A DNA stretch of 64,000 bases, taken from positions 1,104,798-1,168,797 of the forward strand of contig NZ_MVOI01000003.1 of NCBI RefSeq assembly GCF_002283555.1, given 5' to 3'. Below are positions 6,434 through 64,000 of the stretch, piece by piece (the first letter of the stretch is position 1; each line of letters starts with the position of its first letter). The translations under genes were made by a program, and so were the position numbers. The notes beneath the pieces were generated by a model that did no database searches, was not told where the DNA came from, and was given only the letters and a program-made list of their open reading frames with translations. The stretch comes from Rubrivirga sp. SAORIC476. GTDB lineage: Bacteria > Bacteroidota > Rhodothermia > Rhodothermales > Rubricoccaceae.

Positions 6434-9400
6434 ATGCCGCTCTCCCGACGCGACCCCGCCCTGCTCTACGAGTTGTCGCTCGCCGTCGGGTCCTCGCTGG
6501 ACCCGCGGGAGGCCGCGCGGACGTTCGCGGCGGCCCTGGTGGAGCGCCTCGGGCTGGATGGCGCCGAGGTGTGGGCCGACACGTGCGCACTGGACGCCAC
6601 CGTGACGACCCACGGGCTCGACCTCCTCGTCCGCGTCGGCGAGCCGGTGCCGGTCTCCGAGGCGACGCGCGACGCGGCCCGCCACGCGCCTGCCCTGGCC
6701 GGCGCCACGGCGGTGCTGCCGCTCCCCGAGGTGGGCGTGCTCGCCTTCCATCGGGCCGACGAGCGACCGTTCATCGAGATCGAGGCCGACGCCCTCGGCC
6801 AGGTGGTCGACAAGTTCGCCGTGTCGCTGCGCGGCGCCCTCGCCCACTGCCAGCTCCAGCGCGGGACCGAGGAGCGCGACCGGGCCGAGAGCGCGAGCCG
6901 CCTCGCCGCCGAGCGGCTGGCGGCGCTGATCCGCACGTCCCCGGCGGCCGTCCTCGTCGAAACCGCCGACCGGCGCGTGACGCTCGCCAACCAGACCTTC
7001 TGCGATCTCTTCGGCATCCCTGCCCCGCCCGACGCCCTCGTGGGCATGGACTGCGCCGCCGCCGCGGACGAGTCGGCGGCGCTCTTCGCAGACCCGCCGG
7101 CCTTCCTCGCCAACGTCGACCGGCTGCTCGACGCCCGGGAGCGCGTCACCAGCGAGGTGCTGGAAATGGCCGACGGCCGGATGCTGGAGCGCGACTACGT
7201 CCCCATTCTGCTGGACGGGACCTACGCGGGGCACCTCTGGGAGTACCGCGACGTGACCGACCGCCTCCGCGGCGCACGCGAGATCGACCGCCTCCGCCAG
7301 TTCTACGAGTCCGTCCTGGAGTCCATCCCGGCCCAGCTGGCCGTGTTCGACCCGGACGGGCGCTACCTCTTCGTCACGCCGAGCGCGATCGGCGACCCGG
7401 AGCGGCGCGCGGCGGTGATCGGGCGGACCGACGAGGAGTATGCGGTCATGCGCGGCCTCCCGCCCGAGATCCCGGTGAAGCGCATGCAGACGATCCGCGA
7501 CGTGGCGGCCTCGCAGGAGCCCATCCAGTTCGAGGAGTCGTTCCGGACGCGCGAGGGCGCGATGCGCCACTTCGTCCGCTTCGTGAGCCCGGTCGTGGAC
7601 GAGGCCGGGACGACGACCCAGGTGCTCGGCTACGGGCTCGACATCACCGACCGGAAGGCGGCCGAGGAGGCGCTCGCAGCCAGCGAAGCCCTCAAGCGCG
7701 GCGTTTTCGAGTCGGCCCTGGACGCGGTCATCACCATCGACACGGCGGGGCGCATTCTCGAGTTCAACCCCGCCGCCGAGCGCACCTTCGGGCACCGCGC
7801 CGCCGACGTGATCGGCCACGTGATGGCGGACCTCATCGTGCCTCCGGCGCTGCGCGACGCGCACCGCGCGGGCATGGAGCGCTACCTCGCCACCGGCCAC
7901 GGCCCCGTCCTGGGCACGCGCATCGAGGTCCCTGCCCTCCGCGCCGACGGCTCCGAGTTCCCCTGCGAACTGGCCATCAACCCGGTCCGCCTCGACGACA
8001 ACCGCGAGGTGTTCACGGCCACGCTCCGCGACATCACCGAGCAGAAGGCGGCGCAGGACGCGCTCGCCGAGAGCGAGGGCCGCTACAAGCAGATCGTCGA
8101 GCACAGCCAGGACCTGATCTACCGGGCCGACCTCTCCGGACGGTTCACGTTCGCCAACGCCGTCGCCGCCCACCGCACGGGCCACCCCGAGGCGGACCTG
8201 ATCGGGATGCCGTTCTGGGACCTCGTCGCCGAGGACCAGCGCGCCGACGTGGTCGCGTTCTACGCCCGCCAGATCGCCGACCTGGAGCCCAACACGTACC
8301 TCGAACTGCCCATCGTGACGGCAGACGGCGAGACGGTGTGGATCGGGCAGAACGTGCAGTTGCTGATGGAGGACGGCGAGCCGGTGGGCGTGCAGGCGGT
8401 CGCCCGCGACGTGACCGAGCGCCGCCGCGTGATGGACGAGTTGGTGGCCGCCCGCGAGACGGCCGAGCGCGCCAGCCGCGCCCGCGAGGAGTTCCTCGCC
8501 AACATGAGCCACGAGATGCGGACGCCGCTCAACGCGGTCCTCGGCATGGGCGAGCTGCTCCGCGAGACGGCGCTCGACGGCGAGCAGCGCCACTTCCTCG
8601 ACGCCCTCTCGTTCTCGGCCGACCAGTTGCTGGCGCTCATCAACGACCTGCTGGACGTGGCCAAGATCGAGTCCGGCCAGATCCAGTTCGAGCGCGTCCC
8701 CTTCCGCCTCGACGAGGTGGTCGAGGGTGTGGCCGAGGCGCTCCGGTTCCGGGCAGCCGACAAGGGGCTCGCGCTGGCGCTCGACCTCGCCCCGGCGGTC
8801 CCGACCCGCCTCGTCGGCGACCCGGTGCGGCTCAACCAGATCCTCCTCAACCTGCTCTCGAACGCCGTCAAGTTCACCGAGCGCGGGCGCGTCCGCCTCT
8901 GCGTCGAGGTGGACGCGGTGCGCGACACGGAGGTCGCCCTGCGGTTCACCGTCGAGGACACCGGCGTCGGCATCCCGGAGGCCAAGCTGGCGGACGTCTT
9001 CGAGCGCTTCACGCAGGCCCGCAGCGACACCACGCGCCGGTTCGGCGGCACCGGCCTCGGGCTGGCCATCGTCAGGGAGCTGACCGAGCGGCAGGGCGGC
9101 ACGGTGACCGTCACGAGCACCGAGGGCCGGGGCAGCACGTTCGTGGTCTGCCTCGCGTTCGCCCTCGCCGAGTCGGCCCCGGAGGCGCTGCCGGACGCCG
9201 CCGAGGCGGACCTGACGGGCGCGCGGCTGCTGATCGTCGAGGACAACCCGCTCAACCAGTTCGTCGCCCGCCGGATGCTGGAAAGCTGGGGCGCCGCCGT
9301 CGAGGTGGCCGAGAACGGCCGCGAGGGCGTCGAGGCGGTCGAGGCCGCGCACGCCCAGGGGGCGCCGTTCGACCTCGTCCTGATGGACATCCAGATGCCC

Positions 9401-59116: not shown

Positions 59117-61063
59117 TCACTCCTCTCCCCTTCGGGGCAGGGTCATCACGAAGGTCGCGCCCTGGCCGAGGCGGCTGAAGACCTGGAGCGTGCCTCCGTG
59201 GCCTTCGGTCACGATGTCATACGCGAGCGACAAGCCGAGCCCCGTGCCTGTCCCGGCGGGCTTGGACGTGAAGAACGGCTCGAAGACGCGCGCGCAGTGC
59301 GCCGCCGGGATCCCGACACCGTTGTCCTCGACGCGGATCTGGACCACGTCGCCGAGGTCCTCCGTCGATAGGCGGACGGTTGGCACGAAGCCGTCCCCGG
59401 CGGCCTCGGCGTGTCGCTCGACCGCCCAGCGAGCGTTCTCCAGGAGGTTGACGATCACGCGTTGGATGGAGGCGGCTTCCAGTTCGACCGGGAGCAGATC
59501 GCCGTAGTGCCGCTCGACCCGGACGCCGTCGGCCTGTCCGAGCGAGTTCGAGACCGCCCGCTCCATCAGCTCGTGCACATCGGTCGGCCGCCGCTCGCCG
59601 CCCACGTCGCGGACGTGCCCCATGAGGCCGCGGACGATGGCCTCGGCCCGGCGCGCGTGGTCCCGCACCCGGCGGGTGTTGTCGACGATGGCCTCCAGGT
59701 CCTCCCGGACCGCCTCCCGGTCGGGCGCCTCACCCGTCGTGCGCGCCTCGTCGACCGTCGCCAGCAGGTCCATCGCCAGGTCGGCGTTGAGCGCCGCGAA
59801 GTTGGCGACGAAGTTGAGCGGGTTCTGGATCTCGTGGGCGAGGCCGGCCGACAACCGCCCGAGGGACGCCATCTTCTCGGCCTGGACCAGCTGGGTCTGG
59901 GCGGACCGCAGCTCGCGGAGGGTCTCCGAGAGTTCCTCGTTGGCCGCGCCCAACTCGTCGGTGCGGATGCGCGCCATCTCGGCCTCCTGCTGGGCGCGCT
60001 CCGCCTCGGCCCGGATCTCGACGGTCTGGATGCGGCTGCGGGCCTGGGCCGAGAGCAGGGCCTCGCGGAGCCCCTGGAACGCGCGGAGGTGAGCGAGGGC
60101 GGCGGCGGGGTCCCCGTCGGCCTCGCAGGCGTCGGCGAGCGCCGCGTGGGCTTCGGCGGCGCGTGGTTCGGCACCCGCCGTCTCCGCGATGCCGAGCGCC
60201 TCTTCGAGCGCGGGCCGCGCGTCGCCGGGGCGCCCCATGGCCGTCAGCGTCCGCCCGATCGCGATCAGGGTGGTCGCCTGGGACTGCCGGTTGCCGCTGC
60301 CGGTGCGCAGGCGGAGCGCGTCGCGGAAGAAGGCGAGCGCCTCGTCGTCCGCTCCGCGCTGGTGGGCGAGGATGCCGAGGTCATGGAGCGCGCGCGCCTC
60401 AGTCAGCAGCACCCCCTCCTCGCGGGCCAGCCGGAGCGCAGCCTCGTGGTGGGCTTTCGCCTCCTCGAAGCGGCCGAGGGTGCGGAGGGCGCCGCCGAGC
60501 GCCGTGTGTGCTCGTGCCTGCCCGCCCGCATGGTCGAGGTCGGCGAAGATCCGCAGGGCGGCCTCGCCGTGTTCGAGGGCGCGGTCCGGCTGGTCGAGTT
60601 CGATGTAGGTGTTGCCCAGCCCGCTGCGGACCCACGCCTCCTGCTCGCGAGCCCCGAGCGCCCGCGCCACGCGTAGGTTCTCGTGGGCGAGGTCGAGCGC
60701 CTCGTCGTAGTGCCCGAGGCTGACGTGGACGGACGAGAGCGCGCCGAGGGCGAGCGACCGGCCGGAAAGGTCGCCGAGCGGCTCAATGGCGGTCAGCGCG
60801 CGCGTCAGCAGGTCGAGCGCCTCCTCGTGTTCGGACAGCATGTGGCGCGCGAAGCCCTCGTAGGCCTGCGCGAACGCCAGCACGAGCGGGTCGCCGTCGG
60901 CGAGGTCGCGGGCCTCGTGCGCCAGCGCCAGCACCCGGTCGGGTCGATCGGGGATCGACGCCAGCGCCTCCCGGAGGCGGTCGGCGACGGGCCCGGGCGC
61001 AAGCATCCCCGACGCGAACGCGTCGCGGGTGATCGGTGCGGGCAGCGGGACGTCCTCGGCCAT
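59117..61063 (-). CDS. TPR sensor histidine kinase
   Basis: The 648-residue cytoplasmic protein has about seven tetratricopeptide repeats in its first 350 residues (for example DEALDLAHENLRVARALGAREQEAWVRSGLGN). A coiled-coil linker follows (about 360-410, RAQQEAEMARIRTDELGAANEELSETLRELRSAQTQLVQAEKMASLGRL). The H-box GRLSAGLAHEIQNPLNFVANF and the ATPase domain with VNLLENARWAV and GTGLGLSLAYDIV complete the kinase. The TPR part probably binds a protein partner that controls activity. No response regulator is next to it. The start ATG at 61063 gives the N-terminus MAEDVPLPAP. Confidence 0.93.
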   Translation of the reverse strand: MAEDVPLPAPITRDAFASGMLAPGPVADRLREALASIPDRPDRVLALAHEARDLADGDPLVLAFAQAYEGFARHMLSEHEEALDLLTRALTAIEPLGDLSGRSLALGALSSVHVSLGHYDEALDLAHENLRVARALGAREQEAWVRSGLGNTYIELDQPDRALEHGEAALRIFADLDHAGGQARAHTALGGALRTLGRFEEAKAHHEAALRLAREEGVLLTEARALHDLGILAHQRGADDEALAFFRDALRLRTGSGNRQSQATTLIAIGRTLTAMGRPGDARPALEEALGIAETAGAEPRAAEAHAALADACEADGDPAAALAHLRAFQGLREALLSAQARSRIQTVEIRAEAERAQQEAEMARIRTDELGAANEELSETLRELRSAQTQLVQAEKMASLGRLSAGLAHEIQNPLNFVANFAALNADLAMDLLATVDEARTTGEAPDREAVREDLEAIVDNTRRVRDHARRAEAIVRGLMGHVRDVGGERRPTDVHELMERAVSNSLGQADGVRVERHYGDLLPVELEAASIQRVIVNLLENARWAVERHAEAAGDGFVPTVRLSTEDLGDVVQIRVEDNGVGIPAAHCARVFEPFFTSKPAGTGTGLGLSLAYDIVTEGHGGTLQVFSRLGQGATFVMTLPRRGEE

Positions 61064-61154: not shown

Positions 61155-62831
61155 CTACTTCTTGAACCGCCGCACCAGCGCCTCGATCTGCGGGTCCGGC
61201 AGCGGCAGTACTGACGACGCAGGCGCGGCGGCGGTCGCGGTCGGCGAGGTCGCAGCTGGCGAGGACGCAGGCGTCGGGCGGTCGACCGTCGGGTTGCCCG
61301 CTCGCGCGACGAGGCGCGCCTCGATCTCGTCCATCCACGACCCGTCACCGGACGGCTGGCCCCGCCTCGGCGACGCGGTCGGTGTGGGCACCGAGGCGGG
61401 CGCGGCGGACCCGCGCGCCCGGTCCCCCCCTCGTCTCCCGCTCGCCGCCGCCAGTGCCTGCCCCGCGTCGTCGTTGAGCGGCGCCGTCTCGAAGGCGACG
61501 CGCTTCAGGTTGACGAGGTGCATCGGCGTCACGTTGTCGCTCGTGATCGACCCGCCGACGGTGCCCGGCCCGAGCGTCATGGCGGGGAAGAGCGCCGTCG
61601 TCATGCCCACCGAGCCGAGCGCGGCGACCGTGTTGACGACGATCCGCATGGACGGCTTGCGGAGCGCGAACTGCTCGATCACGCGGTCGGACGTGGCGTG
61701 GAGGGCCAGCGTGTGGCCGATGCCGCCGAACTCCAGGATCTCGATGCACCGCGCGCAGCCATTCTCCCAGCCGTCGGCCGCATAGAAGGACAGGATGGGC
61801 GAGAGCGTCTCCATCGACAGCGGCTCGTCCGGCCCGACCGCGTCGACCTCGGCGATGAGCGCGCGGGCGGACTCGGAGACGGAGAACCCGGCCATCTCCG
61901 CGATCCGGCGCGGGCTCTTGCCCACGATGCCCGCGTTGAAGCGCCCGCCCGGCTTGATGATGGCGCGCAGCTTCGCCGCCTCGTCGGCCGAGCAGACGTG
62001 GCCGCCGCGCTGGCGGAGCGCGTCGAGCAGGCGCTGCCGGATGGGCGCATCGGCGACCACCGAGCGCTCGGTGGAGCAGAGGGTCCCCCAGTCGAACGAG
62101 GTGCCTGTCAGGATGTCGGCCGCCGCCTTCTCCACGTTGGCGCTGCGGTCGACGTAGGCCGGCACGTTGCCCGAGCCGACGCCGTAGGCGGGCTTGCCCT
62201 TCGAGTAGGCCGCGCGGACCATCGGCCCGCCGCCGGTGGCCAGGATCACGTCGGTCTCCGGGTGCTCCAGGAGCGCGTTCGTCCCGGCAAGCGTGACCCC
62301 GCCTTCGCCGCCACCGAGGCAGGCGATCAGGCCCTCGGGTGCGCCCGCGGCGACCGCCGCCTCGGCGACCACGCGGGTCGCCTCGATCGTGCAGCGGACG
62401 GCGCTCGGGTGCGGGCTCATCACGATCCCGCAGCGTGCCTTGACCGAGATGATCGCCTTGTAGAAGGCCGTCGCGGTCGGGTTGGTCGACGGCACGAGCG
62501 CGGCCACCACGCCCATCGGGCTGGCGACGGTCCAGACGCTGCCGTCGTCGCTCTTGGCGATGACGCCGGCCGTCTTCATGCCCTCCATCCGCGCGGCCAG
62601 CGTCCGGGTCGCGAAGAGGTTTTTCTGCTCCTTGCTCTCGGGCTTGCCGAAGCCGGTCTCGTCGTGGGCCATCTGCCCGAGCCGCTTCGCCTCGGCAGCC
62701 CCGGCCTCGACCATGGCCGCAACGATGCGGTCCACGGTGGCCTGATCGGCGGTCTTGAACTGCTTGGTCGCGACGTGCGCCGCGTGGACGGCGTCGCGGG
62801 CGTCCTGGATGGAGAGGAGGTCGGCGTCCAT
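61155..62831 (-). CDS. CoA-acylating aldehyde dehydrogenase with long C-terminal tail
   Basis: The 558-residue enzyme belongs to the EutE/PduP/AdhE-N acylating aldehyde dehydrogenases, which convert an aldehyde, CoA and NAD(P)+ to acyl-CoA. Key blocks are ASPMGVVAALVPSTNPTATAFYK, MSPHPSA, LATGGGPMVRAAYSKGKPAYGVGSGN and GTSFDWGTLCSTERSVV with catalytic Cys252. The core ends near residue 455 (LKRVAFETA). After it comes a Pro/Ala-rich tail of about 100 residues that holds two amphipathic helices, SWMDEIEARLVARA and DPQIEALVRRFKK at the very end. The last resembles the encapsulation helix of PduP (ELETLIRTIL). No shell protein gene is in the window. Confidence 0.9.
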   Translation of the reverse strand: MDADLLSIQDARDAVHAAHVATKQFKTADQATVDRIVAAMVEAGAAEAKRLGQMAHDETGFGKPESKEQKNLFATRTLAARMEGMKTAGVIAKSDDGSVWTVASPMGVVAALVPSTNPTATAFYKAIISVKARCGIVMSPHPSAVRCTIEATRVVAEAAVAAGAPEGLIACLGGGEGGVTLAGTNALLEHPETDVILATGGGPMVRAAYSKGKPAYGVGSGNVPAYVDRSANVEKAAADILTGTSFDWGTLCSTERSVVADAPIRQRLLDALRQRGGHVCSADEAAKLRAIIKPGGRFNAGIVGKSPRRIAEMAGFSVSESARALIAEVDAVGPDEPLSMETLSPILSFYAADGWENGCARCIEILEFGGIGHTLALHATSDRVIEQFALRKPSMRIVVNTVAALGSVGMTTALFPAMTLGPGTVGGSITSDNVTPMHLVNLKRVAFETAPLNDDAGQALAAASGRRGGDRARGSAAPASVPTPTASPRRGQPSGDGSWMDEIEARLVARAGNPTVDRPTPASSPAATSPTATAAAPASSVLPLPDPQIEALVRRFKK

Positions 62832-63090: not shown

Positions 63091-64000
63091 ATGACCGCCG
63101 CCACCCCCTCCCCCTCCGGCCTCGCCGCCGTCGACCGCCAGTGGGGCGGGCTGGCGGCCGGGCGCACCTACCTCCTCGTCGGCCGTGCGGGCGCCGGGCG
63201 TTCCGCGCTCGCCTTGCAGACGGTCCGCGCTGCTGCGGATGCGGGCCAGCGCTGCCTCGTCATCTCGCCGCGCTCGCCCGACGAGCTCGTCGAGGTGGGG
63301 CACGAGGTCGGCCTGGACCTGGCCGCGGCCCACACGGCGGGCACGCTCCGTCTGCTTCGCATTCCGAAAGCCGCGGACCTCGCCGCGCGCGGCTCCGAGG
63401 GCCTGGCGAAGTCGTACCGCGACCTCGTCGCCCTGGTCGCCTCCGACGACCCGGCGCGCGTCGTCATCGAGGACTTTACGCCGCTCGTCCAGTTCGACAC
63501 GTTCGAGCGCTTCCACGACGCCTTCGCCGGGCTCGTCGGCGCGCTCCGCGAACAGGGCGTGACGCTCGTCATCGGCCTGGGCGACCCGGCCAACGACGCC
63601 TCCCGCCGCCTCCTCGACGTGGTCGAGGGGCTGGTCGACGGCACCATCCACCTCGGCGCTGGGGGCGACCTCGTGCTGGGCACGCCCGGCCGGGCCGACT
63701 ACCCATCCAACGACGGCGCATCGGTCGATGCCGTGCCGCCGCCCGCTCCGGAACCGCCAGCGGCCGTCGCACTGCCTGCGCCGCCCGCTCCCGCGCCGTC
63801 GCCCCTGCCGGATCCGGTCGCCGCCGAGCCAGAACCGACGGCGTTCGCACCCGCCCCGACCTCGTCGGAGCCGCCCTCGCCGGAGCCCGCCAGCCCGGAT
63901 CACTCGACGACATTCGCGCCCAGCCCGGCTGGCGAGCCGGAATCGTCCTTCGCCCCCCCCTTCGCCCCGGAGACCTCCGCACCGACGGTCCCGCCCGAGC
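63091..64000 (+). CDS. RecA/KaiC-like ATPase fold protein with altered Walker A, partial
   Basis: The first 303 residues are visible; the gene runs off the right edge. Residues about 8-205 have the RecA/KaiC-like layout: GGLAAGRTYLLV, then a P-loop GRAGAGRS (31-38) in which Arg37 replaces the Walker A Lys, ARVVIEDFTPLVQFDTFERFHDAFAG with a Walker B-like VVIEDF, and GVTLVIGLGDP. From about residue 210 it becomes a Pro/Ala/Glu-rich tail (PPPAPEPPAAVALPAPP and similar) to the edge. The Arg substitution suggests weak or no ATP hydrolysis. Function unknown. Confidence 0.75.
   Translation, partial: MTAATPSPSGLAAVDRQWGGLAAGRTYLLVGRAGAGRSALALQTVRAAADAGQRCLVISPRSPDELVEVGHEVGLDLAAAHTAGTLRLLRIPKAADLAARGSEGLAKSYRDLVALVASDDPARVVIEDFTPLVQFDTFERFHDAFAGLVGALREQGVTLVIGLGDPANDASRRLLDVVEGLVDGTIHLGAGGDLVLGTPGRADYPSNDGASVDAVPPPAPEPPAAVALPAPPAPAPSPLPDPVAAEPEPTAFAPAPTSSEPPSPEPASPDHSTTFAPSPAGEPESSFAPPFAPETSAPTVPPE

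Follow-up and report, generated by a model that had tools for sequence, protein, structure and literature searches.

The closest described bacterial microcompartments (BMCs) are those of the FRAG, SPU and HO types. FRAG BMCs have, according to the 2021 BMC catalogue, scattered shell genes, a triplet of pentameric shell proteins (BMC-P) and no obvious signature enzyme (Sutter et al. 2021, PMC8217296). SPU BMCs are based on DeoC, a deoxyribose-5-phosphate aldolase (DERA), and were proposed to serve DNA-sugar catabolism; an RpiB-type isomerase (pfam02502) and, mostly, PduL belong to their gene clusters (Axen et al. 2014, PMC4207490; PMC8217296). For the HO BMC of Haliangium ochraceum, a distant pfam01791 aldolase with an N-terminal extension resembling an encapsulation peptide is described in some genomes (PMC8217296). 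The system considered here was found from a stretch of 64,000 nucleotides of Rubrivirga sp. SAORIC476 (order Rhodothermales, phylum Bacteroidota; contig NZ_MVOI01000003.1, positions 1,104,798 to 1,168,797; hereafter the window), which carries the gene for an acylating (acetaldehyde-type) aldehyde dehydrogenase (ALDH), a proposed BMC cargo.

A BMC with scattered genes, built of two kinds of hexameric shell protein (BMC-H) and three kinds of BMC-P, probably takes in this ALDH by a doubled C-terminal tail and DERA by an N-terminal helix for the conversion of acetaldehyde to acetyl-coenzyme A (acetyl-CoA). The preliminary description of the window had noted a tail resembling a microcompartment targeting peptide; the finding goes beyond that, to a microcompartment encoded at scattered places for which a signature enzyme can be proposed.

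Tail of the aldehyde dehydrogenase and shell genes

The ALDH (558 aa; 61155..62831 on the minus strand, open reading frame from ATG) was present in 9/9 genomes of the family. It matched PF00171 above the cut-off, and its best curated models were acylating, the nearest being of the acetaldehyde type: TIGR02518, acetaldehyde dehydrogenase (acetylating), with 532.7 bits, below the cut-off of 620.1, followed by AdhE (456.8 bits) and SauS (292 bits). Cys253 (residues are numbered as in P0001, which has one additional residue at its start) was identical in 37/37 sequences and stands where the catalytic residue of the family is expected.

Past the catalytic core, which ends at about residue 450, follow a Pro/Ala/Ser linker, helix 1 (GSWMDEIEARLVARAGN), a second linker and the terminal helix 2 (LPLPDPQIEALVRRFKK), all on the minus strand. 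Linker 1 (residues 456-496; 61347..61469) is fast-changing and mostly predicted to be disordered, with a gap fraction of 0.37; helix 1 (residues 500-511; 61302..61337) lies in the conserved motif GSWMDEIEARLxxRAGN; linker 2 spans residues 516-541 (61212..61289); and helix 2 (residues 547-558; 61161..61196) is amphipathic and similar to an encapsulation peptide, with the pattern PDxQIxxLIRRFKK. The AlphaFold2 model placed helices at residues 500-511 and 547-558, with predicted local distance difference test (pLDDT) values below 50 at 465-497 and 513-543. Mean pairwise identity among 25 orthologues of the order was 0.72 in the core, 0.19 in linker 1, 0.67 in helix 1, 0.14 in linker 2 and 0.43 in helix 2. 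The tail is therefore real, as the preliminary description had it: two conserved short helices on disordered, fast-changing linkers. Its wording of two amphipathic helices held for the last one, strongly amphipathic with a rank at the 95th percentile among 18-mers of the called proteins (97th for the median orthologue), and not for helix 1, which at the 78th percentile was only mildly so and did not stand out.

Encapsulation peptides are described as terminal amphipathic helices, about 15-20 aa long, that are attached by a disordered linker of low conservation (PMC8217296, PMC12339742). Helix 2 has this build, and helix 1 is the less amphipathic of the two. An amphipathic helix by itself is common, and it is the conservation and the genome context that raise helix 2 above chance: its pattern was present in 30/30 ALDH orthologues inspected within the order. 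The comparison with the PduP helix, also drawn in the preliminary description, carries little weight because the PduP peptide sits at the N terminus and the pattern is generic. The best reading of the tail, judged from sequence, is a doubled encapsulation peptide, which would target the enzyme to a shell.

The shell genes that the preliminary description had proposed to look for are present in the same genome, with two matches to BMC (PF00936; 4e-29 and 9e-23) and three to EutN_CcmL (PF03319; 2e-25, 3e-20 and 5e-13), all above the curated cut-offs, so that both hexameric and pentameric shell proteins, by which a BMC is recognized, are encoded. Neither of the results that the preliminary description had named as refuting, a genome devoid of shell genes and orthologues devoid of similar tails, was thus observed. 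The shell genes occupy three places, none beside the ALDH, which is on a different contig (C3). Two single-domain BMC-H genes adjoin each other at C6:509.8-510.4 kb, two BMC-P genes do so at C6:455.4-455.9 kb, and a further BMC-P gene stands alone at C4:120.7-121.0 kb. All shell genes found in this genome code for single-domain BMC-H or for BMC-P, and no double-domain BMC-T was seen.

Among 114 genomes of the order, BMC-H was found in 49, BMC-P in 52, mostly in three copies, and the ALDH (E <= 1e-40) in 49, including one distant relative (G028, 37% identity). The triplet of PF03319 genes was shared by Rubrivirga and most shell-bearing genomes. BMC-H and ALDH occurred together in 46 genomes, BMC-H only in three (G026, G036, and G085), ALDH only in two (G035 and G104, drafts, both with BMC-P), and neither in 63 (Fisher's exact P = 1e-25, uncorrected for the kinship of these related genomes). 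In the mapped genomes of the order, those in one contig included, the shell genes and the ALDH lay at separate places; on the single contig of G027, the positions were 4.33 Mb for the BMC-H pair, 3.55 Mb for the BMC-P pair, 4.27 Mb for the lone BMC-P, 1.39 Mb for the ALDH and 4.02 Mb for DERA.

Of 50 ALDH relatives from named genomes (L019-L068), 41 had a shell gene within the fetched stretch. The nine without one were L019-L025, L030 and L066, of which L019-L023 are near relatives, apparently of the same family, and two are short contigs. The Firmicutes relatives mostly carried one terminal helix of the form SDDQIMNVVNEVI. The proteobacterial ALDHs (L055-L062, L064, and L065; mostly Burkholderiales-type) had no tail and yet BMC-H directly upstream, so that the tail is not required in every such ALDH; the idea that these tailless enzymes come from organisms without a BMC was rejected on the same ground. 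The shell genes of the Rubrivirga genome, the tails of the orthologues, the co-occurrence of ALDH with BMC-H and the shell genes near the relatives support the resemblance to a targeting peptide.

Some further observations concern the surroundings of the shell genes. The second BMC-H (L007:10114-10605, L166:8415-8915, and other genomes) carries at its C terminus a conserved extension, TVRELRALAR...GREIARATKAELL, with matches to SAP (14.7 bits) and Rho_N (12.7 bits), both below the cut-off; a tail that binds nucleic acid would be unusual for a shell protein and of interest. Immediately after the BMC-H pair comes a YbbR-like gene, both within the order and in a distant family of the phylum (L007:10602-11657; L166:8923-9909; L328:7280-8191). 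Two related small proteins of 163 and 148 aa with a common WLCYAGLGN motif adjoin the BMC-P pair of the Rubrivirga genome (L006:5842-6333 and 6453-6899), and the family search gave no match over the cut-off for either. The lone BMC-P is often neighbored by a class I aldolase of the FbaB type (PF01791).

Deoxyribose-5-phosphate aldolase as candidate partner

The DERA gene of the Rubrivirga genome (C3:2037553-2038389, minus strand) is a true deoC by its match to TIGR00126 (287.4 bits, cut-off 117.3). The core is preceded by about 60 residues, in which the helix MTDQQKAALADRL is joined by a linker to a segment that closes with GAxRxG. AlphaFold2 predicted helices at residues 3-14 and 26-37, and its confidence was low in the stretch that separates them and in the one that follows. 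The extension, scored as GA.R.G within 50 aa before the core, a pattern picked post hoc from the sequences, was found in 35/35 shell-bearing versus 0/34 shell-less genomes of the order. The shell-bearing set comprised 35 genomes read of 48 with a DERA match (G090, G093, and G096 had no match). G035, with ALDH and three BMC-P and with BMC-H not found, was counted as shell-bearing, and G021, with one weak BMC-P, as shell-less; the remote G037 (36% identity) was left out of the tree and table. G022, having no readable in-frame extension, was scored as absent by default and then read by hand: this shell-less sister of the shell-bearing G023 retains a degenerate leader with a frame break (L262). 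The shell-less G020, G021 and G022, where draft errors are possible, seem to keep traces of the extension, as expected after a recent loss. When the profile of the ALDH tail was run against the DERA extensions, the median scores were -0.7 bits in shell-bearing and -9.7 bits in shell-less genomes (Mann-Whitney, 1.7e-6).

In an even sample of the phylum, 80/395 genomes had BMC-H. Of those outside the order, 42/65 BMC-H-positive and 38 BMC-H-negative genomes were taken into the comparison. The GA.R extension was present in 34/36 strong positives (36 of 39 examined; G155, G332, and G364 left out) and in 0/8 negatives (8 examined of 17 with any match, the rest being remote); positives and negatives belong largely to different families, so that this contrast is confounded by kinship. 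Two of three weak positives were examined, and the motif was in neither. Leaders such as MENSEIERIIQLVLKDY or MHQKEIDRLVQSILNQ were frequent among the extended DERAs of the strong positives. In five genomes of one family outside the order, DERA lay about 8-14 kb from the BMC-H pair, and in four of them the fetched stretch extends to DERA, which there belongs to a block of common gene order.

Within the order, the extended DERA tracks the shell and sits outside the shell loci, and it is put forward as candidate cargo only. DERA is the likely signature enzyme, producing acetaldehyde, the presumed substrate of the ALDH. For an adjoining step, a phosphopentomutase-family gene was found in 7/11 fetched stretches around the BMC-P pair, a nearness that may be due to conserved gene order. 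In G089, 17 bp separate it from a BMC-P gene of the same direction, and in G091 it scored 401.9 bits against NCBIfam deoB (cut-off 341.2); the copy in the Rubrivirga genome was assigned by BLAST grouping and a Pfam Metalloenzyme match.

Neighboring genes of the window

The ALDH is adjoined by a TPR/histidine-kinase-like open reading frame, so read by eye, on the minus strand (window 59117-61062). Divergent from the ALDH gene on the plus strand is the gene for a KaiC-like ATPase (531 aa, PF06745, with a Pro/Ala-rich stretch), which starts at window position 63091 and runs past the window end at 64000 (L009:3889-5484); relatives of this ATPase occur near the ALDH in several genomes. The farther neighbors include gene groups recurring near the ALDH in other genomes, which, judged by their starts, are probably accB, accC, gcvH, guaA and efp. 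Statements on neighboring genes lean mainly on family hits or BLAST groups, since the codon-usage calls include some shadow frames in the GC-rich Rubrivirga genome.

Proposed organelle, alternatives and related systems

These data are best read as a metabolosome that is dispersed and FRAG-like in its genes and SPU-like in its chemistry, with terminal helices guiding the products of unlinked genes into one shell. Sequence shows the shell genes, the conserved tails, the co-occurrence and the enzyme family assignments; for shell assembly, targeting, substrate, the recycling of CoA and NAD+, and activity, we infer the following course. The products of the scattered shell genes, BMC-H of two kinds and BMC-P of three, would form a simple BMC. 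The doubled encapsulation peptide would bring the ALDH into it, and DERA would enter the same organelle by its N-terminal helix. DERA would then split the sugar of DNA to yield acetaldehyde, and the ALDH would convert the trapped acetaldehyde with CoA and NAD+ to acetyl-CoA and NADH before it could leak or cause damage.

Several results weigh against this scheme. G026 has the shell and an extended DERA, and no ALDH was found there; G117 and G235, outside the order, have shell genes and a DERA without extension. On the DERA tree, only four changes were counted, and independent pairs with good branch support numbered two, not enough for a sign test, which limits the phylogenetic independence of the pattern; the extension motifs, moreover, were chosen after the sequences had been seen. 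The ALDH-tail profile exceeded the shuffled 95% level for DERA helix A in only 14/34 extensions of shell-bearing genomes versus 3/36, so that a likeness of kind is claimed and not proof of a common signal. The Rubrivirga DERA was not among these 14, and in hydrophobic moment its helix A ranked only at the 54th percentile. The profile was matched best by the DERA start of G028 (MTDAQIDQLISRF; L264, genome 83% complete), which resembles an encapsulation peptide in a genome without shell, orthologous ALDH or GA.R.G; it may be a relic, point to missed shell genes or have another use. As for recycling, PduL (PF06130) was found in 0/9 family genomes with a positive E. coli control and was ruled out for this role. 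PTA_PTB was above the cut-off in 6/20 shell-bearing and 0/20 shell-less genomes, and an obvious terminal helix was absent from the three PTA proteins read; PTA is therefore not a general recycling enzyme either.

Alternatively, the encapsulation peptide and the shell may be real and the aldehyde may come from another enzyme, such as an alcohol dehydrogenase or another aldolase, with a different role for the DERA extension. The shell genes have no enzyme gene fused to them or as a constant neighbor, and several published BMC types are without a known signature enzyme (PMC8217296). The tracking of the shell by the DERA extension (in 35/35 versus 0/34 and 34/36 versus 0/8 genomes) and the nearness of the ALDH to acetaldehyde-type models speak for DERA, and we regard another source as unlikely. 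FbaB (PF01791), a frequent neighbor of the lone BMC-P, was rejected as signature enzyme, such aldolases occurring in shell-bearing and shell-less genomes alike.

The helices might also gather ALDH and DERA into clusters or condensates in the cytosol, or mediate contacts of subunits, instead of serving entry into a closed shell. The PduP peptide causes cargo condensation and its repeats strengthen partitioning (PMC12339742), and the ALDH tail is doubled; the joint retention and loss of helices and shell genes would be left unexplained. This explanation is very improbable. Hardly any credence is given to a tail unrelated to a compartment, with shell genes that are vestigial or of unrelated role and a co-occurrence due to shared descent. 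The genes are unlinked, independent losses are few, and the BMC-H pairs stand among other genes with fixed neighbors, such as the YbbR-like gene; the shell genes, however, are intact, with scores well above the cut-off, and the 41/50 ALDH relatives with shell genes in the fetched stretch argue against a vestigial shell.

Returning to the dispersed metabolosome, it is almost as likely as not that the scattered BMCs of the phylum, and perhaps FRAG BMCs at large, serve as organelles for deoxyribose-5-phosphate (DNA scavenging) and are encoded at four to five unlinked loci, with only the DERA and ALDH helices as tie, no PduL-type phosphotransacylase, and acetyl-CoA or another route leaving the shell. 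With DERA as signature enzyme, much of the Rhodothermales and other parts of the phylum would bear a DNA-sugar organelle. This candidate is revealed only by the helix added at its N terminus, gene neighborhood giving no hint of it, and terminal extensions that appear and vanish with the shell offer a way to find the cargo of scattered BMC genes. No published report linking microcompartments with the Rhodothermales or Bacteroidota to an extended DERA was found among titles and abstract starts, with most subscription papers and preprints outside this coverage, and the order is not named in the main text of the 2021 catalogue (PMC8217296).

A locus of similar content, L026 from a Clostridiales metagenome-assembled genome, has an ALDH 48% identical to the present one, two deoC proteins with N-terminal leaders and a BMC-H pair beside the ALDH; unlike here, all genes, PduL included, lie in one stretch. 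With SPU BMCs (PMC4207490, PMC8217296), the present system shares DERA, here as candidate cargo, the acetaldehyde-type aldehyde dehydrogenase and the proposed DNA-sugar catabolism. It is not assigned to them because no clustering of enzyme and shell genes was found in the mapped genomes of the order; it also differs in PduL, which the family genomes lack. The HO BMC has the BMC-P triplet in common, and its distant pfam01791 aldolase is the nearest published precedent for a DERA targeted in trans, although HO has a main locus and BMC-T, and the shell proteins found here are BMC-P and BMC-H of the single-domain type only (PMC8217296). FRAG BMCs agree in shell genes at several places remote from the enzymes, in the BMC-P triplet and in an aldehyde dehydrogenase mostly not beside shell genes; the system is called FRAG-like only, the likeness being one of gene arrangement and triplet. 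In contrast to the FRAG type, published without an obvious signature enzyme and with its function left open in the catalogue (PMC8217296), the system here has as proposed cargo in trans DERA with its extension and ALDH with its double tag, and the DERA link would give such BMCs a testable function.
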